In this document: piece by piece, positions 12,554 to 63,078 of the stretch
Layout of the letters: every line of letters starts with the position of its first letter
Numbering within the stretch: position 1 is the stretch's first letter
NCBI RefSeq assembly: GCF_000165425.1
Contig: NW_001799649.1
Location: 227,565-291,564 of the forward strand
Direction: 5' to 3'
DNA from: Paramecium tetraurelia
Lineage: Eukaryota; Ciliophora; Oligohymenophorea; Peniculida; Parameciidae
Length of the DNA: 64,000 nucleotides
The notes under the pieces: model-generated
Database searches by the model: none
Told to the model about the DNA's origin: nothing
What the model saw: the letters and a program-made list of their open reading frames with translations, nothing else
Position numbers and translations under genes: made by a program

Positions 12554-12632
12554 TAATTTTAATAATGGAATAATTTTTATTATTTTTGTGTGTTATATAT
12601 AATATAGAAATATTAATAAAAATAAAATTGGA
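12554..12632. promoter_or_regulatory. Short divergent intergenic region
   Basis: Only 79 bp of AT-rich DNA separate the start codons of the Q/N-rich gene (minus) and the WD40 gene (plus), so both promoters must lie here or in the flanking coding sequence. No motif is recognised. Confidence 0.3.
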
Positions 12633-13790
12633 ATGAGACCCAAACCCAGAGCTAATAATAAAGAGCAACAAAATGTGGAGGAATAATAGCCTTAACATGT
12701 AATAAAGGAGGAGAAACCTATTAGTGATAAATATCAAGTGAAATACAATTCAAAAACACAATTGAGATTAGATGAAAAGGAGAGTTTTGTATTAGGAGTG
12801 CCAGGGACTAAAATTTATAGTGTGAAATGGGATGCTGAGGATAAATATATTGCTTGTGCTTGTGAAAATGGGACGGTTCGAATTTTCAATGTCAGAAAAA
12901 GGTAACTGTCCTATTTGATCAATTCTCTTGTTCCCAACATCCCGTTTTCATATGTTAAATGGAGACCTCAAGCTTAGCAATTTAAGACGAGAAACATCTT
13001 TGTAACTGGAAACACAAAGGGCGAAGTGCAACATTGGCATATGACTAGTGGGAAATGTTTGGGAACAATGAAGGAAGACAATTCTGATATCTATTGTATA
13101 GATTACAATTAAGATGCAACCAAATTAGCGGTATGTGGATTGAATCCAATCATTCGTATACATGATGAAGAAAAAAGAGTAGTTGATGTTAGACTAGGAG
13201 TAGAATAAACATAACCACCAGGTCATAATAACAGAGGTATTAATTAAATATTATATATACAGTTTATTGTGTTAAATTTCATCCTCAAAATCCTAATATG
13301 TTGATATCAGGAGGTTGGGATTACAGAGTCTTAATCTGGGATATTAGATAAAAGAAGCCAGAAGCTAATTAGATTTACGGTCCCGTTGATTTGTGGTGAT
13401 GGTATAGATATGAGAGAATCTTTTGATGGATAGCAACTGTTAACAGCATCATGGTCATAAGAGAAACAGTTGCAAACTTGGGATCTTAGAACTTGTAAAC
13501 TTATTTGTAACTTTGATTGGAATTCTCAAATAAAGGTTAGTAACCAACCGTGCTAATTGTATAGTGGATAATTCTCAAGGTAGTTTGATAATCAATTGAC
13601 TTTGGCAGGAGGATCAGGTGAGAATGAAGTGAGGATCTTTGATTCACAAGATTTTGACAATGCCTAAATATGCATCCATGATCTTTGCAGAGAAGTCAAT
13701 ACTGTAGACTGGGCACACAAAGATTCCAGATTTGCATTCTCGGGTGGTGACGGCTACTTGAGAATATTTGAAATATAATAAATAAATTGA
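12633..13790 (+). CDS. WD40-repeat protein, carrying an apparent 1-nt frameshift
   Basis: The start is ATG at 12633 and the stop TGA at 13788-13790. One 26-nt intron lies near 13237 (GTATTAATTA...ATACAG). The product, about 375 aa, is a series of WD repeats with motifs such as VKWDAEDKYIACACENGTVR, GGWDYRVLIWDIR, LQTWDLR and GGDGYLRIFEI, forming a beta-propeller scaffold. At the CCC of 13382-13384 the frame breaks: upstream reads IYGP, while downstream WD sequence (LICGDGIDM...) continues in the next frame, as if one C were extra. No GT-AG intron explains it. The stop is 4 bp before the next ATG. Confidence 0.85.
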
Positions 13791-13794
13791 TTTA

Positions 13795-16698
13795 ATGTAA
13801 GAACGGTTTATGAGGGCTATTCAAGAGTTGGATACCCTTTTAAGAGAAACTGAAACCGGCAAGATTAAGCTCAGTCTTACTCTTAAAGATCTAGCGCAAC
13901 TGCATCACTTACAGTCCAGACTTCAGGAGTGTAAGTTTCTCAATTCAATCTATTCCGAGGAAAGCAGAATTAAGTAACAAATCAACGATTCATATTAAGA
14001 TAATACCTTAACAAATCAGTGACAGTCAATCTATAAATTCAAGAAGAACTGTGTTCAATTATAGAATCAAAAATGGAATCAATTGCAGTATTTCATTTAA
14101 TAATATAATCAAGTCTAATTTCAATCATCTAGATAAATTAATTCTCTATATCTTGAATTAAACAATGAATAAAGCAACTATGAAGAATGTACTTAGACAA
14201 ATTAGCAATATTATATTGGGCAGCAATAATTTCACTTTGCTAAGATTTTAAGAAAAATCCGTAGAGAGTGTCTCTACTGATGAATTTATTGAAGTAAATT
14301 ATTGTTCTCAAAATAGCAATAACTAACATTAGAATAGAAATTACAACTCTATTAATAATTCCGTGGCGACCAACTCGAAATCCTCACTTTTAAACCCACT
14401 GGGCAATTGCAATAGATATTCAAAAGCAGCTCTTTATAGGTCATTAGAGTACCATAGAAACTGAATGCCTAAACCCATTCTTCACTCATAATATATGAAG
14501 TATAACAGTTTGCCAAATTGCCTCAATCGAAACCCCATCAAATTAAACTGATTTGTGATCAACTAATTACTATAGGTTATGACTATTTAAATGAGAATTA
14601 CCAGTAAACATTTCTGCTCAATATCATTTAGTAAAGATGACTTAATCAATTCAGTCAGAGCCATAGGTTAGTTTTTAATTAAAAATGCACCAATCTTATT
14701 TTAGGAATGCATTAGGAATGAAATCGAAAAAAAACTCAACACTAAATGGTAATAGTTTAATTTTATTAAAAGTGAAATTATTTAATCAACCAAAAACTCA
14801 AAAGACACTAGTTTTGCAATTTTAGAAAATTAAACTTAGTGCTTTATTCCAGTTATGTCGAATCATGTTGTTTAATTCTATTTACATATGGAGAATGTTT
14901 CATTGGACATAATCACTTTTGCAGATTTTGTATTAATCCATATGATTGAATTTAGATGTCACAATTATGGTAGTATTTCAAGCATTGCTTAAGAGAATTA
15001 AAAGATAAAGAATTTCTATACTAAATCATAGAAGTAAGTACACCAACCAAATTAGTAATTGCGTCTGATCTACATCTGAATATTATTTATTAGAGTGGTT
15101 CTGTGCCTTCTTCATGGAATTTCTTGGATCTCAGCAATTAATAAATCGATTGTTATTAAAACTTGACAGAAATAAAAATGGAAGAAATCTACAAAACCAT
15201 GTTGCTATCATCTTTAGATGAAGTATAGAAGAGTAAAAAAGGAGCAATCGATGTTGGTTAAATCATTTATCATGATAAATATGTAGATATTGCAATTTAT
15301 GTGAAAAAAGATGAGAAAAATGAAATTAATTAATTTTTTATTGTTTTTGATCAACCCAAGAAAAGATTTGAATCAAAACGTCACTCAAAAAGTGAAATCA
15401 AAGAATCTGAAACTCTGGCAAGCTTAAAATAGGAGAAAATAGAGAAAGCATGTTTAGTATTACAAGAGACATTAAATTTGAATCTATAAACAGATGAGAT
15501 AATTGATATGCTCAAAGAACATGCATTGATGACAATCATTGAACAAAAAGAATTAATAACTGAAGACATCAGATAAACCTATGTTTTAGAGTATTATAGA
15601 AACTCTGAATAGGTGTAAACTTATCGTAGGACAGTGAGTGAGTCAGATACTCCTTTTGCAACTAAAACGTTGATTCAAGAATAATAATTGACTAATGCAA
15701 AAAGTATTAAAGTATCTAATAAAAATAGAAATGGAACTGTTTTAATTAAGACCTGATGATTTGGAAAATCTGAATAACTGGTGTTTTGATATTACAATAT
15801 AGAAAGATCAAATAAAGCATTATACTTGGGCATTGTTCCATTTATTAAACTATTTTGACAAATACCAGATGTATAAGGAAACATTTTTTCAATTTTTAGT
15901 TGCAATAGAGGAGAGATACAACAGTCGTCGTAATCCCTTTCATAATTTTGAGCATGGTTTTACCGTGGCTCATGCATGTTATTATATGATAAAGAATAAG
16001 CTCTTAGATGAATATTTGGATTAAACCGAATAATTTGCAGCAATATTGTCGTCGCTTTGTCATGATATTGATCATACAGGTCGAACAAATGGATTCGAAG
16101 TTGCTAGAATGTCTAAATTGGCAGTGAGATATAATGATGAAAGCGTGTTGGAGAATCATCATGCTGCAATGGCCTTTAAAATAATGCAGAGGGAGAAATA
16201 TAATATTTTATCAAATCTTTCTCAAGAGCAATTCTAGAAGGTGAGGAGATTCATGGTTTCCAATATCTTAGCAACAGACATGAAGAAGCACTTTGATTTA
16301 GTGTCATCTTTAGAGATCAAGTATAAAAATGGAGAAATGAACATCGTCAATATGGACACCAAAAGAGTGCTTTCAGGGTTAATAGTGCACACTTGCGATT
16401 TAACACAACCTACAAAGAGGTTTGAAATAACGAAGAAATGGTCGATTAGAATACAGAATGAGTTTGACAATCAAGTGGAAGAGGAGAGGTTATTGGGATT
16501 ACCGATTACTTAACATTTAGTGTGTTAAAATTTACCAAAATAAGAATTATCATTTATTAGAGTATTTGATTAATTATAATTTAGAATATCATCCAACCAT
16601 TGTATGCGTTGACGTCGTCGATTTTGAATAATGGATTATCTGTTGCTTTGAAGTGTTTGGAGGAGAATGAGAAAGAATGGACGAAATTACTGAATTGA
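13795..16698 (+). CDS. 3',5'-cyclic nucleotide phosphodiesterase with GAF-like N-terminal region
   Basis: The frame starts at ATG 13795 and ends at TGA 16696-16698. Introns include two of 26 nt near 13975 and 14098, one at 14294-14316 (23 nt), one of 28 nt near 14608, one of 25 nt near 15702 and one of 23 nt near 16561. Junctions between about 14660 and 15110 are unresolved. The N-terminal 600 or so residues are mixed alpha/beta with GAF-like stretches. The C-terminal PDEase domain has the full metal-binding set: NPFHNFEHGFTVAHA, HDIDHTGRTN, ENHHAA, ATDMKKHF and the late Asp in VHTCDLTQP. It should hydrolyse cAMP and/or cGMP; specificity cannot be read. It is followed after 37 bp by a guanylyl cyclase gene on the same strand. 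Confidence 0.88.
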
Positions 16699-16735: not shown

Positions 16736-19700
16736 ATGTTTTATAGTAACGAAAGAGCTGAGAAATTGGTGGAATGGTTTCGATAATTCATTCAAAATTT
16801 CTATTCTTAGAATGCACAAATGATCACGATGGAAATGAACAAAGGCATTTTGACTCTTTTGAGTGTACCTCAAGAACAGAATGTGTTTTGTTCCCAAGAG
16901 TATACAGTATTTTCATTTCAACATTAAAGGTAGTAAATTTCATACCAAAAACATTGTTACGTTGTTTTATGAGAATCAGCAATGTATTCCTACTTGTGAT
17001 TTCATTGATAATGATCATAAATCCATCCTTGTCTCCATACTATATTTGGATGATAATAGTGTAAATTGCAGCTGGAGCCATCGTGTTTATTTGCAATGAG
17101 GCCTTATGTGATTGGTAAAGAAGAAACTCAGACAAATTGGTGAATCAGCAATTTACAAAGAAAGGAGGTCGAAATGGTGTGATAGAGGAGATCAAATGGT
17201 AAGACATTAATATAGGGGATGTTCTGATACTAAATAAAGGGGATATGGTGCCAGCCGATATTATCGTCTTGGACACTGGATAGGTGAGAGATCGAGAAGC
17301 AGTTTGCATGGTAGATTCGTCTTATTGTGATGGAAAGAGCACATTCACAAAAAAGAAGAGTTGTTATTTGACTTAATGTAATTAAGAATCATTATATGAC
17401 AAGTAATCGTATTAAGAACTAGACAGAAATCTTAGTTTGCTGAATATAGAAAATTATTAACTGGTCGATTAGAATATGAAGTACCCAATAGACATTCAAA
17501 TATTTTCAGAGGGAGATTGAAATTGAAGAAGGATCCCAAGGTTGAATTTTTGTCTATTGAGAATCTCATACTTTAAGGATCAACTATAAAACAGACATCA
17601 TGGTTATTTGGATTAGTTGTATATGTTGGTTCTAAAACAAAGAACTCTATGAGTTCAAAAAGAAATAAGGCTAAATGCTCTCATGAAGAAAATCTTATTG
17701 ATTTCATATCATTGTGTATGATAACGTTAATTCTATTTTTCTGTTTAGTATTATGATTGGATTTATAATTTTAGATATCAATAATAGTGCTGTTAGCTAG
17801 ATCAGATGACCTAACCTTTGCATTGAGGATTGATAAGAACACATAAAATGGGATGAAGATATTCAACCTTCTCATTCTGTATAGTTAATTCATACCAGCG
17901 AATATTTTCATGATTTTAGATTTAATCAATATAGTAAACAAGATCAAATTCAAATTACAAAGACCTCAAACCTTTTCTGAATTGGGTTCTTTGGATTATA
18001 TGTTATTGGATAAGACTGGCACTATTACTACATCATATTATAAATTAGATAATTTTTAATTCGGATCACAAGTATTCAACCTGAATCATGATTAACTCTT
18101 CAATCAATTAACCAAGAATAAAAGGAGTGATGAGGAAGAAGACGTTGTCAAATTTGCATCCATCTTTGATCAAGAATACTATATACCCATGGAATATGAT
18201 ACAGTCAATCGTAAGACTAGTCAAGTGATTGATCTAATGCCAAACATCAATAAAAAAGTGTTAAAATCAGTTACAACTGATAATAATCAATAAATCTTTA
18301 ATTAGATTCTTGAATAACAATATCAATTACAACCAAACAGTGTGAGAAGTCAAGATTTTCATGACATGGTTAGTCTGCGTAAATCAATGCTATTCTAACA
18401 TAAGAAGAGAAATTTATTGCATCAACATTAATCTTTGATGAGCAACAATAATGACGAATTTCTACAAATGATCAATCAATATAAACATAAGTCTCCACAA
18501 TTAGAATATGCTGAATTGCAAAATGAAAATGCTCTCTATTATGATTGCTTCATGAAATGTCTCATCTTGTGCCATGAGGCCAGACCAGTGTATTTGAATG
18601 ATGTCTAATATGAATCATTTTCTAAGAATGAGGAGATCGCATTAGGATTTGCTAGATTATGTGGTTATTAATTAGAATCCTTTAATAAATTTGATTGTCC
18701 TGATGCTTATCTATGTAAAATAAGAAATCAAAAAATCTAATATGACATTTTGGGATTAAATTAATATACTGAAAATCGAAATGTTAATTCAATTGTTGTC
18801 TAATCCTAAAAGAGTGGAGATATTGGAGATTGGGATCCCTGTGCAATATCTCATCTGAGTGGTGAAGGCTCCAAGAATAAGTCCTTACTCATTTGCAAAG
18901 GCGACTATGATGCCATCAAAACCAAATTGCAATTGACTCCAAAAGAGAAAGAAGAATTAGAATAACACATTTAAATTTTAAAAATGAGAGGAGTTAGAAT
19001 GATTCTCTATGGAACTAGAGTACTGAATGAAAAAGAAACAGAAGAATATAAAAAACAGTTCAATTTATTAAAAAACTCTCTTACCAACCAGGATGAATAA
19101 TTAGAATAATTGGCCATACAATACGAATAGCAATTATCCATTATAGGCATGATTGGGTTTAAGGAAGAATTAAAATAAGATGCGCATGAGTTTATCCAAT
19201 CTATCAAAAGCTAAAATATACATATATGGCTTTTAAGTGGGGATCAAGAGGCACAAACCATCAGTTGCGCTTAAGCCTTATAAATAAATGAATCCATTTA
19301 CAACAAATATCTTCAGATATCGTAAACAGAAAACGAAAAGATATGGTTTCAATTAAACACTTGCATAGGCATCATTTAATCAGAAATGGTCAAATAATAG
19401 TTGTGCAATGAAGATTTCAATACTCTTATCAATTCAAGCAATACCATTTATGATGGAATAAATTACCAAAAGATGCTCAAATTTACACTTTTAGTTAATG
19501 GAAATGCTCTAAGTATAATCTAAGGTGATAATGATTTATTGAGTCATTTTAGATTTTTGGCAGGAATATGCAAAAATGTTATTGGGTATAATATGAATTA
19601 ACAACATAAAGAGATGATGTGCAAAATCATTAGAAATTCACTTAATAAGCATGTGATTGCTGTAGGAGATGGATTCAATGATCAATTAATGATGCAATAT

Positions 19701-22700
19701 TCTAATATTTCTGTTGAGGTTATTAATAATAAGAATAAGCAATCAATTATAAATACAGGTGATATAAAAGTCTAATATTTGGGTGAAATTAAGGAACTTC
19801 TATTATAAGGTAAGATTTATTAGGAAAAATTGCATCATTTAATTATGTATTGTTTCTATGCTTCAGGATTAATAGGGATGTCATTATTCTTTTTTAATTG
19901 GTTCTGCTATTTCACATCAACCAGTCTCCATGGAAGTCTTACTTTATTTTTGTATATACAAATATTTATTGGAATAAATGCACTTTTAATTGGACTATTC
20001 TCTAGATAGACTTCATATTACATTAATCAACTTTACCCTTCACTCTATATTGATGGCCAGATTAGAATAAAAATCATTTGGAAATTGTTTTTGTTGAACA
20101 TTATGGAATCCTTTCTAACTTCAGCAGCTGTATTTTACATGATCCTTTACTAATTCAACTATGCAATGAATGACAAAGGATAAATTATTGGCTTAACAAT
20201 GAATTCTTTAGGCATTATATATTGTTTTATCATCGTTATAACCTTTAGAGTATTCTAGGTATTGAATTCCTTCGGGAAATTAATGTAGCTGAAATTGGTC
20301 ATTATTCTTGTTTTAATAGTCATCCTTTCAGATGAATACAAAAATGAAACATATCAAATTTTTACACGCTATTAGTGCATCATTTCTATGATAATCTCAT
20401 TAATCTTATCATTTACTATTAAATACATATTTTAAGATATTATTCGATTGAGGATTTTCCCTAGCGTATATGAATAGATGGCATTTCGATATGAATTGGA
20501 TAATGAGTCAATCAACAGTTAGTAAATAATCAATCAGCATTTGGATTAATAGATGTATATAAACTTATCATGATATAATAGAAACATTTCGCAAATCATA
20601 TCTCAAGTATTCAAAGATTGTAAAGTCTTATCCCCCTACATTTAAGAAATATTGAACCCTGGTGATACAAAAATCACTGAAATGAGATTATCTAAGTTGA
20701 CTCTCAAAATAAATGACCTAATCGTGGAACAAAAGTTTCTTTCTATTAAACTGCAAGAATCACTAAATTCTTATAGATTATTTCTTATTTTATTGTTAAT
20801 CTACTTTGGAATTTATTGTTTAATCGATTATTTCATAAATCTTTAACAAATCCGAACTGGTGCACTTTATTTATGCCTCTTCTGCATTTTTGCTATTATC
20901 ATCATATACGTAATGAGCAAGCACTTGCAATAAAATTACTATACACATTCACACATGATCTTTATTGTGTTTTATATCATAAAGATATCCTTGGATTGGC
21001 TGAGTGATGATTTAAGTTTCATTATGTCATCAGTATTAGTAGCATTATTTACAACCAATAACACTATGAACATCAACATCATACCAATTTTTGCATATAA
21101 TATCGTTTATATCATTCAATTAATAGCAAGAATCATCTTGGTTCTCATTGCTGATTCATCCTTATCTACTTAAGGCTATTATAATCATACTAGGGTTGTG
21201 ATTTATGGATCTAGTACCTCGATTATTTTGATGTTAAGTCTAACATTCAGTTTACTCTACACATTATACAAGACAATATAACGTCGAAGAACTGATTTCT
21301 TAGCCAAGTATTATATTGAATAAGACAACTTGGCTGCCAATGACATTCTTTCCATCTTAGTACCAAAATTTGTTCGCAATCAGATCCAACTTGGCAGTTT
21401 ACATATGCAGGAAGCCTAAAATGATGTGTCTATACTATTTTGCTATGTTTGTGATTTCGATTCTATAATGAAGGAAGAGGGAAGAAATGTTGTATTGATG
21501 TTGGACTCTTTGTTCCGAATCTTTGATAATTTATGCTTATAACATGGAGTTTAAAAGATAGAAACTGTTGGTTATACATATATGGCAGCCACTGGTATTA
21601 AGGCTTCTGAAATTAATATCTCGCCTCACATGTTAAAAACAGAAAAAACCATGAGACTTGTCAATATGGCATTCGATATGATGGAACAAATTCAAGGAAG
21701 GCAATATGGCAAAGGAAATTAAATTGAAATGAAAATTGGTATCCATGTGGGGAGAGTTATTGCAGGTCTCATTGGGCATCATAAGCCCCAATTTTCTTTG
21801 ATAGGTGATCCAGTCAATTAAACTAGTAGGGTTGGTTCTACTGGAGATGTTGGTGCAATCACACTTTCTGCAGAAGCATTTAAATAAGCCAAACAGGGAA
21901 TAAAATACTATAATAAAAAATAAAAGGAAGCAAAAGGATTGGGATTGATTGATACATATTAAGTATTTAAAATTAAGCCAAACAATTATCAAATACCAAT
22001 CAATTAATTAAGATGGTAATAAATAGCAAAATTGGTCATAAAATAATAGAAACTTAAGAGAAACCTAGCAGGGGCAGTTCAAAAAGAAAGCATTTTATAA
22101 AAGATTTAAAACTCATTAAATAATTTGCATGATAATAGCTGGGGTAGTTAAAAGATTTCTAATTCACCAAAAACATAATTTGCATAATCTCTATTAAATG
22201 TTCCTTCTTTGCCTGACCAACGCAGGCATAGTTAATTAGATACTATTCCCATATAAAGTTTAGCAATTTTAGATAGTGAGGAGACTTAAATACATGATCA
22301 GTAGCACGTATAAGATGATGAAAATAAATATAAAGGGTTATTAAAGCCTAACATACTTTTAATGATTCCTGAGAGCTAAAACCTAATTAAGAATGGTTTT
22401 TATAATATACATTATGAACAACAATAATACGAAAGTTATTTTGCTTTGTTGACACTATGGATCATCTTTTTCGTAATAACATTACTTAGCATTATTATAA
22501 GAGAATTTTTTGGTTAATCATACGACATATTTTTTATAAGAGTAAGTAATTATTATTTATAATTAGTCTTTGTTCTTGTTTTGCTTAATATTTTTGTTAC
22601 CAATTATTAAATAAACCTATAAAAATATCTACATAAATTGGATCTTTTATGTTGTTTTTTTATATGGATAATTTGCAGTTATCTATGGAACATTCTTAGC

Positions 22701-23745
22701 TAATAACAAGTTAGTTACGATAATTTCAATGGTTGAATTGGTATATTTAGTTGTAGTCGTTTGTTCTTTGAAGATATTCACTTTTGTTTAAATCCTAGTG
22801 TTCATGATATTGGTTTTCACATCCTTTTTAGCCCTCTCTATCAACAATAATTCACTGACCCATTAATACATTTTTTATATATTGTCCTCTTTGGTTTTAT
22901 GTCTAATTGGATATTATAAGGGAATGTCCGAATTAATAGAAATGTATAATAATCTTTAGCTGAATGAACAAAGGAAGGCCAAATAGATATCATTAGTAAG
23001 TTAGCTCTTACCTACACATTCGTATTTGAAGATGAAAAATAACACTCTCTATAATAGATCAGAATTTATTGATGATTTAGATGATGTGACTTTATTATTT
23101 GCAGATATAAAAGGATTTACTGAATATTCTCACACCTAAACCCCTGAAGGAGTTGTCACGATGTTAAGAAATCTCTTCACAGAGTTTGATAAATTATGTT
23201 TACAATATAATGTATACAAAATGTACACAATTGGCGATTGTTATGTTGTTATGGGATTTTAATAGGCTACCAAAAGAAATGTAAAATATAATATTTAAAA
23301 TTAGCCAATTTAAGAGGCCATTAACACAGTTAAGATGGGTTTTTCTATGATTGAAATAATAATGGAGGTGAGAAAATTAATTGATTTTCCTCTTTTAAAT
23401 ATGAGGATTGGTATTCATACAGGGTCTATAATTGGGGGGATTATTGGAACTGATATTGTTCGTTATGATATATATGGATAGGATGTCAGTATAGCTAATA
23501 AAATGGAGAGCTCAGGAAGCGAAGGGCATGTGTAAATATCAGAGACAACTAAATTAATGATAGAGAGGGCTGAGAGAAATCCTTTTGTGTTTTAATTCAA
23601 ACAAAATGTTGAATTGGCTAAATTCAATACTTCTATTAATGGGTACATAGTAGAATGGGAAAGGAAAAATAGAGATAGAGGGGAGAGCCACTTTAGAAGT
23701 GAACCTTACATAACAAGAGATAAAATGCAAAGTCAAAATTTATGA
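16736..23745 (+). CDS. Guanylyl cyclase with N-terminal P4-ATPase-like domain (bifunctional ciliate type)
   Basis: The start is ATG at 16736 and the stop TGA at 23743-23745. Introns at 16907-16929, 17403-17422, 17748-17774 and 22542-22566 leave 2,304 aa. Residues 1-1200 form a P-type ATPase region of flippase type: N-terminal EYTVVNFIPK, DKTGTIT with Asp402, GDGFND near 954, and multiple membrane spans. Two membrane/cyclase cassettes follow. C1 (about 1540-1700) keeps Asn1671 and Arg1675 (PVNQTSR), with Glu1586 and Ser1664 at the base-selecting positions, but has Tyr at both metal sites (FCYVC, VGYTY). C2 (about 2080-2260) keeps both metal Asps, 2092 (FADIKGF) and 2136 (IGDCY). This matches the known ciliate guanylyl cyclase architecture, in which the C1/C2 roles are swapped relative to mammalian adenylyl cyclase. 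It is predicted to make cGMP at ciliary or cortical membrane. Confidence 0.96.
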
Positions 23746-26710: not shown

Positions 26711-28356
26711 TCAGTTATCAGAATCATCATCTTAGTCATCCTATTCCTCTGCCTCCTCTTAATAGTTTTCAGGATCTCCCTCGTATTCACTTAAACCTTC
26801 ATAATCCTCCTAAGCCACATCGTCCTTCTTCTTGTCCTCCTTATACTTTCTAATCTCATCCAACACGAATTCTTATTCCTTCACATCGTCAATCTCTTAT
26901 TCAGACTCTTCAAGTTCCTCCCCTGCCTATTGTCTCTACTTCTCGGACATCACCTTCTACTTAATCAATTCCTCCTACTCATAAATCAACCTCTAAGCCT
27001 CACTCTATAGATTACTCTCTCCTTTTCCTTTTTTACTGTTGTGCTATTCAATTAGTCGAATTAAATCCTTGACTTTTATTTTGTTGCCCACAAAACCAAA
27101 GTCTTCTGAAGTTCTTTTCAATTATTTCTCCAAAAACAGTGTGTATTCATAGAACCACTTTTCATTTGAGAATATCGATAAGTAAATTACGATCCTATTA
27201 ACAACCTATTGGCAAAAGTCAGCCCAAAATGTTCCTGACTATTTGTATTTGGGTTTAATGGAGATATTGATCAAAAAATCATAAGGTTTCACACTGCTCT
27301 TCAACTTCCTCCTCTTTAATTCTGCGCAATTCAACATTCTGAGGATATAACTCAACAGGTTTTGATTGACCTTATACACCTGAGACACTTTGATAAGGAT
27401 ATCAATCAACTGTAATTGGAAAGTGTAATTGTCGATGCAAGGATAAAAGTCCAAGACAGATTGAGCTATTTGAATGAAGGGAGGCATCAAATCAGCCAAT
27501 TGATTCTCCCTCTTGTGAGTGCATATCACTTGTGCCCACAATTTGAGGACATACAATGTTTGTTAATTGTAAATGGATAACACATTCTATTGATTCTTAG
27601 AGACACTAGCATCTCTGATTTTTTTGACCAATTTTTGTAAACTCAAATACACCACTTAATAGGCTTGATTCATATTCATATTACACAACTCGGTGACACA
27701 ATTGATCATGAAATTGATTGCTTCATAATTCCTCCAAAGCACATGTTTAGCTGATTCCAAATATTTCTCATAAAATTTCTACATAATCACATATATTCAC
27801 ATACCTTCAAGATGTCTTGTTGTTGATGATCAGGCATCGATTAGAACACCTTTCTGACTTATAAGAATGCTTGCAATTTGATTTACAAGGATAAGTGATC
27901 ACCCCACACTTGTATCAATAATTTCAAAGCCTTCTTTTACAAACTCTCAAAGGCTGTCAATATAACATTCAAATGTTCTAGAGCTCGTATCACAAAGAGA
28001 ATAGTGTCCTCCTAAGCCTCTTGTGTCTCGATGGTGTGTTCCAAGAAATTCATAGCCTTAATTAGAAATCCCCTTATGATCACTTGATGAATGTGAGACT
28101 CGATATGCTCTCTCTTAAATGTGTCAGCGTAATCAACTTGATAAAATTCTCTCAAAATATTTGGAAGTTCTAGCAATGAGAATCGTATTATCTTAGAGTA
28201 ATCTTCAGGTTCCTTACAATACTTTGTAATCGCTTAATCAGGCTAATCTTCATCCTAATCTCCTTGAGATGCGAGTCTAAAAAGCTTGATTATTAGTGAA
28301 ATGCTCTTGAAATTAGGGGACTCTGTGAGTTTCCCAAAGAGTTGATTAATAATCAT
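26711..28356 (-). CDS. NOC2: NOC2-family nucleolar complex protein
   Basis: The start is ATG at 28356 and the stop TGA at 26713-26711. One 26-nt intron (GTATGTGAAT...TATGTAG) leaves 539 aa. The alpha-solenoid sequence matches the Noc2 core, including the LYVLKLWAQV segment, the LNPxxxY-like VLDFYPCIDNYTFQLQLIDI, and the KPYDFLINISIKPKYK motif (KPLDF-x5-K in the family). An acidic Glu/Asp tail follows. Noc2 pairs with Noc1/Noc3 in nucleolar assembly and export of the 60S subunit. The protein lacks the long N-terminal extension of yeast Noc2. The predicted start is 9 bp from the divergent kinesin start, so a later ATG is possible. Confidence 0.85.
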
Positions 28357-28365
28357 TAATTAAAT

Positions 28366-30646
28366 ATGTTACTTGATAACATTAAAGTATGCAGCAATTA
28401 TATATATTCAGGTTGCCATTCGTATACGACCATTCACAAATAGAGAATTGGAGATTTCTGACATTACGACTCTCTTAGTCTTGGATAAAGAGACCGTCTC
28501 CACTATTCCTCCCATCGAAGCTGGAATCAGGTAGAATCAAAAAACTTACAATTTCAATTGGGTCTTTGATAGAATGATATCACAAAAAGAAATCTTCGAA
28601 ACCACCCTTGAGTATTAAGTCCTTTCAGTACTTGATGGAATTAATTTTACCATAATGAGTTACGGAGCATCAGGTTCTGGCAAATCACATACGTATAAGA
28701 ATTATTCTCTAAATTATAGACTAGTCAAGTATGCTGAAGATTACGGATTGCTCATTCGTTCTATCAACAAAATCTTTTAAACCATCTAGAATAAGAAAAG
28801 ATAAATTGCTATTAAATTTTCCTATTTGGAAATCTCACAAGAGTAACTCTACGATTTGCTTAATAACATGAACACCAATCTGGATATTAGAGATGATTAG
28901 GACAAAGGTGTAGTTATACATGGAATAAAAGAAATGGAAATTGCTAGTACACAAGAATTGATTCAACTTATTCAAATAGCTAAGAAGTAAAAATCACTTA
29001 AATAACATGAATTACTAATCTTCTCTCTCTATATCTAAGACCATCCCGATGGAAAATTGGTTGTATCTAAATTGATTTTTGCTGACCTTGGGTGGGTGGA
29101 AAGGGGAGCTCAAAAGAAAAAAAATATCTCCCTCTAGGTTCTCAATAACTGCATTTCTCTTCTGAATGAAGCAAAGAAGAAGAACACTCAAACATTCATA
29201 CCTTACAGAAATAGCAAATTAACTCGGTTATTGAAAGAATCGTTGGGAGGGAACTCAAAAACTCTCATGATTTCCTGTGTAAGTCCTGCTATCTTGGGAT
29301 ATGAGGATACTATCCAAACACTAGAATACAGTTAGATGGCTACCACTATCACAAATTAGACTTCAATTAAGGTGTTTTAGGATAATGAATAATAATTAAT
29401 TATGGAGTAAACTAATCATGATTTAGTTAATTAAAATGAAGAATTAAAAAAATAGTTAAATAAATAATCTCAAAAATAAAATGAAGTTATTCAAATGCAA
29501 TAAATTGAGAAAAATATCATTCAGCATTTCAATCGAGAATCTTCAATACAGGAAGATATATTTAAAATGTAATATGAAGCAGAATAGATGAAATAAGGGA
29601 TCAAAGACAAATAACAATTATTAGACAAAATCGATTTATCAGAAAGGAAAAAGTATAATCAATTGAGAGATGAAATTGAAAATGATTAAGAAAAGGTTGA
29701 ACTTCAAGAAAATGAAATTAAAAAACTGCAAAAATAAACCAATGATTTCACTATCCAGAGGAAAGCATTATAAGATGTAAAATCTTTATTCATTATAGAA
29801 TATAAAATAAAATAGTTTAGTTGACGTTGATAAATTATATCTCACTAATCTAATCGAAAAGTTTATACTGAAATTGCAATTACAAGAAATCAAAGCAAAA
29901 GAATCCATCTATCAATTACATCAACAAGAATAAGAGAAATTGCTCTCCCTTCAAAACAACTAAATCACCCTTAGAGACAGGATCATAGAAGAACAAAGAA
30001 AATAAATAACATAAAATTTTAAATTAAATTCAACCAAACGATATACTAAAAGCGATGGAAGTAGTCAACTAATTACTACATCCAAATCGAAGTTCAAATT
30101 GAATCCAATCCTTCCAAAGGTTTCTGGTATCTCTTATTTTAATTCTTAGATATACAATAAGGCTAAGAACCGTACTTGTACAGACAGAGCTCTTCAAGAT
30201 AGACTCCCTAATTACAAACCCCTAAGAAGAAATCAAAGTCTAGATCCAAATCTAAATCAAGAGACAAATTCAAAACCAAAATACCGAATAAAAATGTCAT
30301 TGATAACCTATCAACTCCTCAAATTCATAGGTATAATGCTTTGGATAGAGCTTCTCCTTCTAAATTAATTGATTCAAAATCTATGGTGGCACTTCCTCTG
30401 ATTTAATCGAATAGAAGCGTTACCAAGTTTGTATATGATTCGAAAAGTGGAGGTTATAAGTTTTTAGAAGAGTAGTCTATATTCCCTTAATAAGTGTAAA
30501 AACAGTAATAAAAGCAAATACCGATTGAATAAGATAAGTCTTTTCTAATAAATTCGAGTAGAGGTAAGAATGATTCTTTGCAATATTAGGATCTTCGGTA
30601 TAAAAGAATCACATCAAATAAGGTCTTCTTTTACCTGGTAAAGTGA
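28366..30646 (+). CDS. Divergent kinesin motor protein
   Basis: The start is ATG at 28366 (MLLDNIK, then a 25-nt intron, then VAIRIRPF). The stop is TGA 30644-30646. Introns of 25, 27, 22 and 23 nt leave 727 aa. The N-terminal motor (about residues 5-330) has P-loop [12 protein letters not shown] and the end of the motor, [21 protein letters not shown]. The nucleotide switches are unusual: switch I, normally N-x2-SSRSH, reads KSLKQH, and switch II, normally DLAGSER, reads DLGWVER. A coiled coil of about 180 residues and a basic, Ser-rich tail ([15 protein letters not shown]) follow. It probably binds microtubules, but ATP turnover may be weak or absent. Confidence 0.9.
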
Positions 30647-55341: not shown

Positions 55342-58300
55342 ATGAGTAATGAAGAGTATATAATTGATAACTTAATCAACGAAGCTAGATTCTTTATTGA
55401 TCACAGAGATGATAACGAGACCTTTCTGAGTCAAAGTTAGGATTCTATAGATAAAATCAACCAGATCCTAAAGAAAAATATCAGGTATGCATATCAATAA
55501 TATTCAGATCATCATTTCTAGATATTTCATAAGAGGTGATCATCAAATATTGTGAGGCTTGTTTGATTGTGCCAGACAAGGCTCATATCGCACAATAATA
55601 CATAGATTTGTATTTCCAAAGGAACACATCATAAGGGCAGTTTTACATCCGCGCATTATTTATAAAAGCTCGTCTCATATCAATGAATGGACATGACCGT
55701 CTACTAAAGGCAGAAGACATGATAAAGAATCTAAAACTCTCTCTCACATATGTGCAATAAGGATTGGATATCATTTCCAAACCTGAGAATAAATAGAAAT
55801 ATGGTTTTCTCATTTACAATGCTTCTATTTGTGTTTATAACATTATTCGTCCTATGCTAAAACCCTAATGGCAATTATCATTTGTGGATATTCTGGATAA
55901 AATAGATAAAATGTTTGAAGAAGTGGATGAAGCCGATTATGACTGGAGATGTCGTTTTACATGGCTTCTTTTCTATTGTTTGTACGATGATAGGAAGGCT
56001 GATGCATTTAAATTACTGGATCGTTTGTGGGAAACCACAAAAAAGAAAGGAGATTGCGATTTCTAAAACTCATTGTTAAGATTGAGAATTCACATTGGCA
56101 AAGAATATAAGCAAGCCTTGGATTCTGCCTTCAAAGAATCAGAGTCTGCTCCATCAGAAAAGGCTTGGAAATCCTTATTTATGCTATAGAAAATGAGAAG
56201 TGGATTAATCCCTGAAGCCTAAGTAGAAAAGGAGTTGATCAATTTAATTAATTCAATTTCGAGTGCAGTGCTACCTGGCAATGAAGTGGCAGCAACCAAC
56301 AAACTAGCACCAGTGTTTTAGGAAAGATTAGCAGAATCTGGAAGGGTGGCACTTCAGTATAACTTAGTCAACATAGCAGATTCAATTACAGCATTTTTAA
56401 GTAGAGTGAGACAATTGCATTAGAAGGCATACATTTTACATGAATACAACAAGGCTGAATTGTTTATCAAGAAGGCTGGTCCACTTATCGACAATAAAAC
56501 AGGAATGAGATTGAATTCTCTTTAAATAAAGATGTAAGAAGTCGAAAGAAGAATTGAGGCTTTGAAAACAATGGAAAAAGTGATGGTCACAAATAAGAAA
56601 TTAAACGACCCTGACTTAATATTTGAAGGTGCTGTTTTAATATGGAATATTTCCCTACCATTTTTGAATGCTCAATATAGAGTTCATGTCTACAAGGCTT
56701 TTTCCATGGCTTGCTAATTGTTAGAACAACTCCAATGTGTTGACCATGCTTTAAGAGTGAATTTCCATATAGAATTAGCCAAAAGTGACTTACAAGAAGA
56801 TTTAGCTGTTAAAGCAGAGTAACACATAAAGAAAGCCTTGTAACTTGATTACAGTGTGCCATTGGGGAAAGTGCAATTTAAATATGATGAAGGAGAGGAT
56901 TTGGGATTGTATTAAAGACCATATGATAAATATTTACGTAATTTAGAGGAGAAGATTAGACTGAAGTTAAATATTTATCAGGAACCAAAAAATGATATTG
57001 AAAGAGTGATTACTCAGTTAGAGAATGTGTAAGCAGCCAAGTCTGAAAATCTCAGGATTGATATCTTATAAAAGTGCTTAGGAACCATTGTTAATTTGTA
57101 GGAATAAGAATATTGGTATGATACAAAATTAGACCTTGTAGAGGAAGAGTAAAACAGAGAAAAAGTATTAAAGAAGCAAGAAAATTTATATCAATTTAAA
57201 TAGAAGAAATTATTAGCAGCTGAAATTGCAAGACTAGCATTTGAATGGGAATTTAATGATTTAGCATTTAAAGCGTGTGAATTTGTATGCAATGACACGT
57301 GGGATGTTAAGAATGCTTCAGAGATGATTTTGGCTTAAGTAGAATGTTAATATAGAATGGCCTAAATGATAATTGATAATTTGATTAAGGATAATTTTGA
57401 AATTCCTTTTGCTGATCCAATTAGAGTAGAAGAAAATGAGAATGTGGAAGAGTTAAGTTAAGAAAAGAAGGATCAAGTGTTGTCATTAAAAAGAAAGATG
57501 TGTTCTAATTTTGTCAAAGGATTGAAGTTGGCAGATTCAATTAAATAAACTTGGTTAGTATTTAATGGGGCCATATACATTTGGAATAACTTCTTAACAA
57601 TTTTCCGTAATCCTATTAACGATAGTAAGTTATTGCCAGAAATCACCAATTTATTGAAAGAATTTTTTGAAATTATGAAGAATTCTTTGAAGGAAATTGA
57701 AAAAAAATTGATAAATGATTATGATATCGATACTAAAATATAGGTATTGGCTAATATTGGATTGGTTTATGCAAGGTTGATGGAAGGCAAGGCTCAATAT
57801 GATGAAGTTATGAGAGTATGTGAGGCACTTTTACTAACACCATTATCTCCTCACACTCGTAAATTGATCAATTCAATCAAAGCAAGAGTGTCAGGTACTG
57901 CTAAAACTAGTGCAGCTAAGCCAGGAGCATAATAAGATAAGAAGGGAACTAAATAACCATAGTAATCATCCTCTGATAGTGTCATCTTTGATGTTGTTTC
58001 GTAATTGGAAATTATTTAAAATTCAACCAATAAAGCACAAACTTAGGATTTGATTAAAAAATGCTTTGAAACTCTTGTAGGATGGACAGCAAAAGAGAAT
58101 GATGAGACTGAACTAGAGTTGCATGCTGAATTGTGGGCAAGATTAGCCAGATTGTCATTAAATGAAGAGACCATATTAATGTACAAGTATTCATTGAGAT
58201 GTGTTCAATATTCATTACAATTATTGACATCGGATTTATCCACTATTCCAGCATCAAGGTTAAGGTGGTATTCATTGGCTGAATACATATATAGTGAGAA

Positions 58301-61300
58301 TTTATTAAGAATGCTTAACACAGAAACACAAGAGACTGAGTCTTAAGAATCGTTGCTGTTTTCAAGTTTGTTCCATGCAATTGAAGCTGCCAATAAAGGA
58401 TTAAAAGCAGGAATCAATAGTTTAGTGTTGGATGCATCCAAATAAGTATGGAATTTATGCGCAAGATTGGAAGAGAGTGCTTAAAACAGAAAACATTTGA
58501 TTAAGCCAGTCTATTCTTGTTTGAATTATTTGAAAGAATGCAAAGAAAAGAGTGAACCTGATCTAGTGTTATTGCTAGCCTAATTACTCTTTAAAAGTGC
58601 TTTAGAAAATGAAGATTACAAGTTAGGGGAAATGGCAGCTGATATGGTATTTGAATTAGTACCCAAAAATATGGCCAAACCCATTTGGGAAGCCAAAATG
58701 ATTTTTATGAGCAAACAAGGCAAGAATGAATTACAAGCAATTGTCAATATGAAAGAAGCAGACGCATCTCTTTAAGCCAAGGTTTGGATCAGATTAGCCA
58801 GAGTTTCGAATAACCTTTATAAATAATATACAGCCTATAATAAAGCCATTGAATTATTGAAGAAGGATTCATCGGTGGAAATTGTTGAAGTCTTAATAGA
58901 ATTTTCTGAATGGTTACTCAGAAATGGAAATGAAAAATAATTAGTAATTGAAAATTTAATGTAAGCAGCTGATACTTTAATTGAAATTGAAATGGAGGAT
59001 GATGAGGAAGAAGAAGAAGGAGATGAAGAGCAGAACTCATCAACCATTTTCAGCAGAAGTACAAGAGGCAAAAAGTCTACTGTTTCCAAATAATCAAAAC
59101 AAAAGTCTAAAATGACGAAGAAAACTACTAAGAATACTGTTAAATAAAATAAAAGCAAAGAATAAAAATCATAAATATCTGGTTAAAAATCAAGTAATTA
59201 AAGATTTTCAAGAGCTGCAAATGTTAGAACTACTACAATCAAAAGCAATAAATAGAAATCAAAAATATTTAGACCACGAGAGGAGGAAGCTAATCCAAAT
59301 AGATTGAATTGTGCTCATTATGAACGATTAATGAGAATCCACATCATGCTAGCCATGATTGCTGATACAATGGAATAATCTATTCAATTTGCTATCGATG
59401 CTAAAGTATTTTTAGTCAAAATCATTGAAATCTCATTTCAAACTATGAATGAATTTGAAGAGAATGCTGCTAAATATACAAATATCATTGACGAAAAAAC
59501 AAGCAAATAACAATAATAATAGCCGAAACCTCAATAATAAGATGATTTCTCACCCAGATACCTGTTACCTACTTGCATCTAGGATTGGATCAAATTGCAA
59601 TTTAGTAAAGAGTTCCTAGAACGAGTAAAAAGCTATGAAGATTTCAACTTTATGGGTAAGTACTTGTTTGATAAGGCTTAATTGACTTACACCTACATAA
59701 ACAATCTTATTAGCATATTTGAAAAATACGGTCTCTAAATTCATAATATACCTATTTTTGTATTTTAGAAGTTCTTTGTTAAGGAAATATTGAATAATTC
59801 TTATTTAGATAGATTAATTGATGTCAAATTTAGCAAGTGCTTACACTTAGTAGGATTTCATAGTGAGGCCGATTAAATGTATCAACAATCAAATATTGTT
59901 AAATTTAAACTCACAGAATAAGAGAAAAAGCAATTGCTTGCGAAAACTGAATCTAGTGTTTTGCAATAAAATCGATCAAGACCTGCAGATATAATGGAAC
60001 AGAATCTACCTTAAGCCAATATTATTAGTGAGATCTTCGTCTACACAATTCTAACAGATTTAGGAAATGAGTTAATATTCTAGGGAGAGATATATAGGGC
60101 TAAAGAATTATTGGCTGAATCCCATAAGCATGCTAAAATAGTCTCAGATTTAGAGTTAATGGGTAGAATCTTATGTCTTCAAGGTCAAATTGCATTCCTG
60201 GAGGGGGAATTCAAAGATTCAATTGAAAACCATAAACTATCCCACAAATTGATTAAAAATGTGAGTTAATGGGAGGTCTCATCTATTGAGACATACAAAA
60301 CCTTATATAAGCTTGGAAAATACGATGACATCAGACAATTTTTAAAATAGATTACAGAAGTCTTGTTAGAAGTCTTAAATAAACCCAACTATTAACCTAA
60401 TAAATTGCAGATTTACCAAACATTAACTACTTTGTACATTTTACAATCAAAAATATCAGCAAAAGACTTATTTAAAGAATTTTCTTATGAAGCATTTAAA
60501 TTAATAGCAGAGAACTTGGAAAAATCATTAAAGTGTATTTAACATGGTGGATTTATGACACATCAGGTAGACCTCATCATTAATTTGGTCAATAAAATTC
60601 TAATTTTTATTAGAAATAGAAATTATACTAAAATAGACTAAGTAGAAATTTACTTTAAAATACTCTAAAGATTATAAAATTCTATATTGAAACCTCTAGA
60701 ATAATAGAGTAGATCACTTTTAAAGTATACTTTATTAATTGAGAAAGAATAAGAGTCCATAAGATCTCCGATAATGGATTAATAAGCAAAAATAAGAGTG
60801 ATAATGGCATCTTGTTTTATTGAGATGGGATTGATTAAATGGTTAAGAAAGCAACAATCATTACCTGATCTCTAAGGGTCTGATGATGATAACAATAATG
60901 ATCAACAAGAGGATAAACCTATCGAATAGTTAAGTAATTATGAACCTCTTTAGAAATTCTTAACTTAATTAACAATTAAGATTTAAAGAGCAATTCAACC
61001 GTTGCCTTAACGATTGGAGTCTTTTGAAAAGGCTACTGCAATTTTGATATCAACCTTGAAATAGTTGAAAAAGGATTCATTTTGGTACACTATTGCTGAA
61101 ATTGAATTAGTAAGAGCTAAGCGATTCTTGGCAATCAGTAAGCAATAATTGGATGATGTTTGGGATGCACCAACATTGTCTTAAGATTAAATACCATAAT
61201 AAAATGAAGAAGATAATATGTTCGATTACAAGACAGATGCTTTGCAAAGTGCACTTAAACTAATTAAAGATCTAGAATCAAAGGGGTTCAATGTACTTAA

Positions 61301-63078
61301 AGCAAAAGGAGACAATTAAACTATCCCATTGGAATGGAGTATATTTGGATTCAAATAAATGAACTTTTACTTGAAGATGTTATATGAATCAGCATTAGAC
61401 ATATTAGGAATTAAAAGTCCTGAGATTTCATATGATTATCTTTGTAAGTTCCAACACTTTTCATTTTGTGAATAAATGTTTAACATGGTCAGATAATCAT
61501 TCTTTGGAAAGCATAAGATGATAGTGTACATCAGACTGATTAAGATGATCAATGCTGAATGCGGTTATTTAAGTTTAGAAGCAATAAAATTGCTCACAGA
61601 AGCTAATAAATTATGGGATAATCTTATGATATTCCCATTAACTGAATTGCAATCCCAATTGTAATAAAGTGCTGGTTTCCTCATAATGCAGATGAGTCAA
61701 AATAAGTCTTGTCTATATTTAGGATACTTACATAATACAAAATCGCCAGTTTATAAGGTCTAACGATTGCCCCTTGATTCTAAGAGCCATGATTAAATGA
61801 ATCAAATGAAATCTAATTTAGATTAAATTAAAAATAATCTGATCAAGACTCCTATAATTTAATAATAGGATTTCATCAAATTGGAAGATGATATGGAAAA
61901 GGAATATGGTAAATATTGCTAAGAAGTGGAGTCATTCATGAGCTTTGTTTCTTAGATGATTGATGAAAATATAAACACTCAAGAAGAAGTGCCGCCACCT
62001 GTTATTGATCCTAAGGCTCCTCCTCCCAAAAAGGATTAAGGAAAATAAACTAAGGGGAAGCCTGGTAAAGATGAAGTGGCCTCATACGAATCCACTTTAG
62101 AATAGGCTCCTGGCAAGATTGACACCGTAGTCTTATTACTGGATCCTAAATTCTTTGACTATCCAGTTGAATAATTGAGTGTATTTTATAAAGTGGCTGC
62201 AATGTCTAGAGACTTTAGTATGGCTGTGTATGTGAGAAGATTAAAGAGTGTTGGTTTCTAAGTTCAATTGAATAATAGTTAGAAGGGAATTGAAAAAGAT
62301 AAACTGAAATATTTGACTTACGATTTCAAAACAGAGGATTAGGATTTGAATTTAGACGAATTTAACTTATAAAAAACATTGACTGAAGTATAAAAAACAA
62401 CACCACAACTGAAATTTGAAGGAGTATAATTTTTGTATTATATTTTAGACCTTTTCTTAAAGTAGATTGGCATCATTAGGCGAGTTGTAAAAGTACTCCT
62501 AGACAGGTTCTTCAATCCTTTGGTATGGGTCTCCTGGAGTGTTGAATATCCTATCTTCCAAAGTAATAATTGATCTTTCAGAAATAAACACTTCAAAGTT
62601 TTGGGTCATATTTGATAAGATGAATGCTAAGAAGAGTTTGATAGAAAAGTTCACATCTTTGGACCCAGATGGAGAGAAAACCCATATTTTAGAATAGAGT
62701 TTCAAGATCTCCGTTTTTTTGACTCTCATTGACGTCAGCACTATCTTAACCACCTAATGGTCTCCTTAAACAGTTGAATATCTGAGAGCGTTTGAAAATT
62801 TGATCAAGCAATTAACTGAAGATATTTATGTTGCTGCTTGTTTACAGAAATATAAAGTATTGAATTAATGCTAATTGTGATAGGCTCCGATCATCAAATA
62901 TGAGGATGAGAATGGAAATATAATAGAGAAGAAACCTTAGCCAGTCGAGGTTAAGAAGGGAGGCAAGGCTGAGCCAGTTTAGGATACATCAAATTGGAAG
63001 GAAATTTAGATAGAGAAAAAGCGTATCTATACTCATAATTTTGTATTCGTGGGTTTGCCTAATTTAAGACTGATTTGA
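55342..63078 (+). CDS. CFAP46: Cilia- and flagella-associated protein 46 (central-apparatus C1d component)
   Basis: The start is ATG at 55342 (MSNEEYIIDNLINEARFFID) and the stop TGA at 63076-63078. Introns of 23 nt near 55482 and 25 nt near 62427 leave exactly 2,563 codons, so one exon is about 6.9 kb. The protein is an alpha-solenoid of TPR-like helices along its length. It contains the segment AIYIWNNFLTIFRNP followed by LLPEITNLLKEFFEIMKNSL, typical of CFAP46/TTC40. The length (2,562 aa) is near that of the animal and algal proteins. CFAP46 belongs to the C1d projection of the axoneme central pair and is needed for ciliary beat. Lys/Ser-rich and acidic low-complexity inserts occur near 59000-59270 and 61980-62070. 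Confidence 0.88.

Follow-up and report, generated by a model that had tools for sequence, protein, structure and literature searches.

A Paramecium guanylyl cyclase gene with a probable split catalytic site and a P4-ATPase half predicted not to pump

Membrane guanylyl cyclases in which a P4-ATPase-like half is joined to two cyclase domains, C1 and C2, are known from Plasmodium and from the ciliates Paramecium and Tetrahymena (Linder et al. 1999), and in these alveolate proteins the two cyclase domains stand in inverted order, an arrangement stated in PMC5746546 and given with its residues in PMC6592433, both of which cite Linder et al. Here we describe a gene of this type in a stretch of 64,000 nucleotides from Paramecium tetraurelia (contig NW_001799649.1, positions 227,565 to 291,564; hereafter the window). 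By description it shares with the cyclases of Linder et al. the domain order, the inverted C1 and C2 and the group of organisms, and it differs in being one of at least 33 paired (C1 plus C2) genes in one genome and in having Tyr at both metal positions of C1. The split-site arrangement is already known, as the first-pass annotation of this DNA had said of ciliates and as the published alveolate residues confirm (PMC6592433), and the window gene adds another member. Very probably it encodes an alveolate ATPase-guanylyl-cyclase-type membrane enzyme with one C1/C2 catalytic site and an ATPase half predicted to be regulatory and non-pumping.

Toxoplasma TgATPaseP-GC has the same inverted C1 and C2, with the Asn/Arg pair and guanine Glu in C1 and both metal Asp residues and the phosphate Arg in C2, whereas only one of its C1 metal Asp residues is replaced (by Glu), its base pair is Glu/Ala where the window gene has Glu/Ser, and its ATPase half keeps DGET, the motif that facilitates dephosphorylation, together with DKTG, KGAD and GDGxND (PMC6592433). 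Plasmodium PfGC-alpha and PfGC-beta share the architecture of the window gene (PMC6592433, PMC7858053); the ATPase domain of PfGC-beta is called degenerated (PMC6592433), and PfGC-alpha differs in keeping NGET and DKTG (PMC6592433, PMC7858053). Two ATPase-cyclase fusions are on record in Tetrahymena (PMC3143110), and for P. tetraurelia one guanylyl cyclase and its paralogue are mentioned alongside 'many other' cyclase sequences (PMC9608856). Paramecium cilia have guanylyl cyclase, cyclic GMP (cGMP)-dependent protein kinase and phosphodiesterases as integral components, and cGMP opposes calcium-driven beat reversal (PMC4588038); ciliary cGMP signalling is a plausible setting for these ATPase-cyclases.

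We assigned residue roles in the window gene after the account of class III cyclases in PMC6592433, and numbered residues by the present gene model, in which each number is 14 lower than in the first-pass annotation. C1 carries the guanine-type Glu1572 and Ser1650 at the base positions and the transition-state pair Asn1657 and Arg1661, with Tyr1533 and Tyr1576 at the two metal positions and Lys1629 at the position of the gamma-phosphate Arg. C2 carries both metal Asp residues (2078 and 2122) and the gamma-phosphate Arg2178, with Ser2206 and Lys2210 where Asn and Arg would be expected and Tyr2118 and Asp2199 at its base positions. The key residues had been read in the same way in the first-pass annotation, and alignment with the mammalian cyclases shows neither an intact pair of metal Asp residues in C1 nor an Asn/Arg pair in C2.

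That annotation had also cast C1 in the role of mammalian C2, a proposal strengthened by comparison with solved adenylyl cyclases (AC). C1 matched their second half better than their first (60.7 versus 38.2 bits for AC5, 63.4 versus 34.1 for AC8) and for C2 the preference was reversed (first half 87.9 versus second half 65.3 bits for AC8, 83.9 versus 43.0 for AC9), so the swap does not hang on a few motifs. Two further residues follow the same division: the phosphate Arg occurs only in C2, and the KG-motif Lys lies in C1. Like mammalian AC5, AC8 and AC9, the protein would form a C1–C2 pseudo-heterodimer, a fold match seen in a predicted structure of the paralogue L012 rather than of the window gene itself (VIA-align). 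It differs from them in that the roles of C1 and C2 are exchanged, the metal Asp residues lying in the second cyclase domain and not in the first, and in having a guanine Glu at the base position and an added ATPase half. No ATPase-cyclase by name was among the 40 (C1) and 43 (C2) distinct PDB sequences matched.

The same division of residues recurs across the genome. A profile search of the assembly (69.07 Mb, 231 contigs) gave PF00211 matches at 105 places, from which 33 paired genes, the window gene among them, were fetched and modelled under locus labels such as L012; a single-match locus that is partly N, the locus L045 (a single C2-like match, its upstream DNA partly fetched), two weak single PF00211 matches and five weak fragments lie outside this sample. 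Because the 33 genes are mutually related, the counts measure conservation over the divergence of a family and not 33 independent trials. The Asn, Arg, Ser and phosphate-position Lys of C1 are each present in 33/33, as are both metal Asp residues and the phosphate Arg of C2, and the guanine-type Glu is present in 32, the exception (L035) reading Gln at a doubtful splice. Both metal Asp residues occur together in C1 in none of the 33: the first position reads Asp in 24, Tyr in five and Glu in four, and the second reads Lys in 26, Tyr in five and Gln in two, never Asp. At the C2 pair positions neither Asn nor Arg occurs in any of the 32 rows that have residues aligned at them. Two models behind these counts carry caveats, L026 having an apparent unspliced in-frame intron and L028 a gap in C2. 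Across the family, then, the residues that would form the working site are unchanging and those of the vacated site are variable. Tyr at both C1 metal positions is not general but confined to five of the 33 genes, including the window gene, which form a single clade (support 100/100). In one sister gene, L034, a short stretch of C1 is out of register, through either a sequencing error or real damage.

These patterns suggest a division of labour in which C2 would contribute the two metal ions, through Asp2078 and Asp2122, and the phosphate Arg2178, while C1 would contribute the guanine contact (Glu1572/Ser1650), the transition-state pair (Asn1657/Arg1661) and Lys1696; supplying the base contact, Asn/Arg and Lys, C1 would perform the job of mammalian C2. 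The mirror-image second site would be dead, with one or both C1 metal Asp residues replaced by Tyr, Lys, Gln or Glu and the C2 Asn/Arg pair gone. One catalytic site per C1–C2 pair, as the first-pass annotation expected, is supported at the level of sequence. That both interfaces are active, or that the domains act as homodimers, is very improbable: Asp does persist at the first C1 metal position in 24/33 genes, but the second position never has it, and the C2 pair is missing from every row that can be read.

The ATPase half of the window gene is homologous in sequence to the P4-ATPase flippases Dnf2, Drs2 and ATP8A1 and keeps their layout, with DKTGT (Asp397) and GDGFND intact, but the actuator Glu is replaced by Lys188, IPISL reads IPANI, KGAD reads KGDY and SGDQ stands where TGDK is expected. 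By comparison, seven of seven stand-alone P4-ATPases of the same genome, taken as the best-scoring matches rather than at random and with lower-scoring non-cyclase matches outside the sample, have DGE, PISL, DKTGT, KGAD, TGD and GDGAND. Among the 33 paired genes the ATPase half is covered whole in 20, in part in three (L038–L040) and falls outside the fetched DNA in ten. Not one of the 20 keeps DGE, DKTG and GDGxND together. Taken singly, the actuator Glu survives in one (L011, itself DKTC), DKTG in nine, GDGxND in two and PISL in none, with GDxxND kept in five further genes (L009–L012 and L021). DKTG is lost in the other 11, the stretch being absent in six (L013–L018), DKTC in two (L011, L012) and ENPQ in three. 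ENPQ is common to L022, L024 and L028 at the former phosphorylation motif, which looks like the replacement of DKTG by another conserved motif. Lys at the actuator position is found in all five genes of the Tyr/Tyr clade, and the same five are exactly the cyclase loci, with no other, at which PF16212 scored above its cut-off in a search made frame by frame, in which intron-split matches can escape. Proteins of this type would have six membrane helices ahead of C1 and another six between C1 and C2; crude hydropathy gives 14 peaks before C1 in the window copy, ATPase half included, and four between C1 and C2, where L020 has six. The genome also holds CDC50 genes (24 matching pieces), CDC50 being the partner of active P4-ATPase flippases.

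Simple decay does not account for the loss of these residues, at any rate in the subfamilies where constraint could be gauged. Nine gene pairs were compared for omega, the ratio of nonsynonymous to synonymous substitution rates, and in four of them synonymous divergence (dS) in the ATPase half was unsaturated; there omega was 0.046 (L011/L012), 0.105 (L014/L018), 0.074 (L015/L016) and 0.056 (L025/L027), against 0.011–0.081 for C1 and C2 in the same pairs. In windows of 200 codons the ATPase half of these pairs ranged from 0.02 to 0.18, with one exception of 0.273 (L014/L018). DKTG is absent from L014/L018 and L015/L016, yet their ATPase half is strongly constrained. For the other five pairs ATPase-half dS was saturated and the ratio of nonsynonymous to synonymous differences (pN/pS) was 0.109–0.417; the ENPQ pair L022/L024 is saturated, so omega is silent on the constraint of that form.

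From sequence, alignment, conservation and the predicted C1–C2 fold of L012 we infer GTP turnover by the C1–C2 pair, loss of pumping and a regulatory role for the ATPase half, which keeps the P4-ATPase layout and, in the window copy, the phosphorylation motif, but not the actuator Glu, PISL or KGAD, and would sit in the membrane to regulate the cyclase or sense for it rather than move lipids. Motif loss combined with constraint in genes without DKTG suggests a conserved pseudo-flippase. More broadly, we give an even chance to the idea that the flippase half of Paramecium guanylyl cyclases is a conserved pseudo-enzyme, its pump residues lost by several routes (a Lys where the actuator Glu was, DKTC, ENPQ at the DKTG site, or deletion of DKTG), with selection still acting on the domain and the cyclase site remaining invariant; its fold could then gate cGMP synthesis in the manner of a receptor or a sensor in the membrane, with no lipid transport driven by ATP, and in this it would differ from its relatives in apicomplexans. 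Several observations weigh against our main reading of the window gene. Its DKTGT and GDGxND are intact, and some phosphorylation chemistry may remain. In PfGC-alpha GDGxND is called degenerated (PMC6592433), yet the DKTG Asp appears irreplaceable, no parasites having emerged from three transfections with D756N, and the ATPase there was concluded to act upstream of cGMP synthesis (PMC7858053); motif loss is therefore no proof of lost function. The L012 model has a mean predicted local distance difference test score of 63.5 and a predicted template-modelling score of 0.53, good in the cyclase domains and poor in the linker and membrane part. A profile comparison of five genes from the most decayed ATPase group with the window subfamily gave a probability of only 69 (E 4e-5), weak evidence that such forms have kept the P4 fold.

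The intact DKTGT and GDGxND, shared by the window gene and its four sisters while the actuator Glu is Lys in 5/5, also lend themselves to another explanation, in which Asp397 is still phosphorylated and its own actuator cannot dephosphorylate it, so that the cyclase would be gated by a phospho-switch that works one way or is reset from outside. The PfGC-alpha result would fit such a switch, but KGAD reads KGDY in the window copy and the mechanism cannot be general when 11 of 20 paralogues have lost DKTG and kept an intact cyclase site; we regard it as possible, though on balance rather unlikely. That the ATPase half is a functioning, if unusual, lipid flippase is clearly less probable, for although the homology is plain (best E 2.7e-33) and the domain has been retained, the three motifs altered in it (actuator Glu, PISL, KGAD) are intact in all seven stand-alone pumps. 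A further explanation concerns this copy only, as a drifting or decaying duplicate of little function whose four sisters do the work. The window gene is the fastest of its clade, with an end branch of 0.14 against 0.005–0.031 in those sisters; its ATPase half is 54% identical to three of them, which are 82–90% identical to one another, and against L020 it has saturated dS and the highest pN/pS of all (0.417), so the constraint described above holds for other subfamilies. Yet its frame is open across 2,290 codons, all catalytic cyclase residues are retained, and pN/pS is 0.15–0.22 in C1 and C2. Its C1 breaks one otherwise uniform column (Val to Leu), against 32 columns that show no variation among the other 32 genes, and the six columns flagged in C2 are adjacent and apparently lie in an insert absent from most rows. 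We consider decay unlikely, and a conserved cyclase with a regulatory ATPase half remains the preferred reading.

With the split site established for alveolates, the present study adds a family-wide table of residues that never change. Of greater interest is the loss of ATPase motifs, which occurs in all 20 genes examined and under constraint where it is measurable. A literature search over titles and the openings of abstracts found no account of such loss across ciliate cyclases, weak evidence of novelty given that most subscription journals lay outside its coverage. In Plasmodium the pump Asp appears essential, and with a related family that has kept the cyclase and lost the pump residues in several ways one could ask directly what the cyclase needs: pumping, phosphorylation or a folded membrane domain alone.

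Table 1. Features of the ATPase-cyclase gene in the window (E, expect value; TM, transmembrane segment)
Feature	Position	Strand	Basis
Gene, P4-ATPase-like domain fused to two-domain guanylyl cyclase	16774..23745	+	codon and homology scoring, translation
Exons	16774-17402, 17423-17747, 17775-20554, 20582-22541, 22567-23745	+	
Intron 1, 20 nt	17403..17422	+	gene model
Intron 2, 27 nt, in-frame TGA inside	17748..17774	+	gene model
Intron 3, 27 nt	20555..20581	+	gene model
Intron 4, 25 nt	22542..22566	+	gene model
Exon 1: P4-ATPase N-terminus, TM1-2, start of actuator domain	16774..17402	+	P4-ATPase chain 6k7g, E 9.6e-16; PF00122 and PF16209 below cut-offs (queries extended to 17478)
Exon 3: TM3-4, N and P domains, TM5-10	17775..20554	+	PF16212, 71.6 bits; P4-ATPase chains, best (Dnf2) E 2.7e-33
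Actuator motif DGKST, Lys188 for Glu of DGE	17329..17343	+	aligned to DGETN (6k7g) and DGEKN (P4-ATPases of the genome)
TM4 motif IPANI for IPISL	17892..17906	+	alignment
Phosphorylation motif DKTGT, Asp397, intact	18009..18023	+	alignment
P-domain motif GDGFND, intact	19665..19682	+	alignment
Cyclase domain C1 (PF00211 match extent)	21411..21965	+	PF00211, 129 bits; best match, second (C2) half of mammalian AC5/AC8
Tyr1533, C1 metal position 1 (FCYVC)	21444..21446	+	alignment
Glu1572, C1 guanine-type base residue	21561..21563	+	alignment
Tyr1576, C1 metal position 2 (VGYTY)	21573..21575	+	alignment
Ser1650, C1 second base position	21795..21797	+	alignment
Asn1657...Arg1661, C1 transition-state pair	21816..21830	+	alignment; 33/33 paired genes
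Lys1696, C1 KG motif	21933..21935	+	alignment; 33/33 paired genes
Cyclase domain C2 (PF00211 match extent)	23077..23619	+	PF00211, 148 bits; best match, first (C1) half of mammalian AC8/AC9
Asp2078, C2 metal position 1 (FADIK)	23104..23106	+	alignment; 33/33 paired genes
Asp2122, C2 metal position 2 (IGDCY)	23236..23238	+	alignment; 33/33 paired genes
Arg2178, C2 gamma-phosphate Arg	23404..23406	+	alignment; 33/33 paired genes
Ser2206...Lys2210 (DVSIANK) where Asn...Arg expected, C2	23488..23502	+	alignment

The gene model (Table 1) is read in genetic code 6, under which the window lists 97 reading frames of at least 150 codons against none under the standard code, so TAA and TAG encode Gln in the source organism. 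It comprises 2,290 codons and a TGA stop (23743-23745), with four introns. The first-pass annotation had begun the gene at 16736, where the ATG lies in a different frame; we prefer the ATG at 16774 because the frame with the P4-like N-terminus opens from it. A hand-made model that placed intron 1 at 17481-17509 was replaced, since the intron at 17403-17422 restores a stretch (GRLEYEVPN...) resembling that of the sister L020.

Directly upstream on the same strand lies a cyclic nucleotide phosphodiesterase gene (15695-16698, +; PDEase_I, E 4.7e-70), whose likely stop is 75 bp before the cyclase start. A fusion of the two was rejected, as four in-frame TGA codons, the phosphodiesterase's own stop included, precede the cyclase ATG, and so was a general rule of phosphodiesterases upstream of guanylyl cyclase genes, tblastn of the other fetched loci giving an unconvincing best E of 0.044. 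The adjacency may be chance, with dozens of both kinds of gene in the genome. Together with no fewer than 33 two-domain guanylyl cyclase genes, the 69 PDEase_I pieces of the genome give a single cell a large repertoire for cyclic nucleotides. Elsewhere the window holds a WD40-repeat gene (12588-13304, +), a Noc2 family gene (26711-27790, -), a kinesin motor gene (28373-29824, +) and an open frame of 2,345 codons (55536-62573, +) that matches the N-terminal tetratricopeptide repeats of CFAP46.
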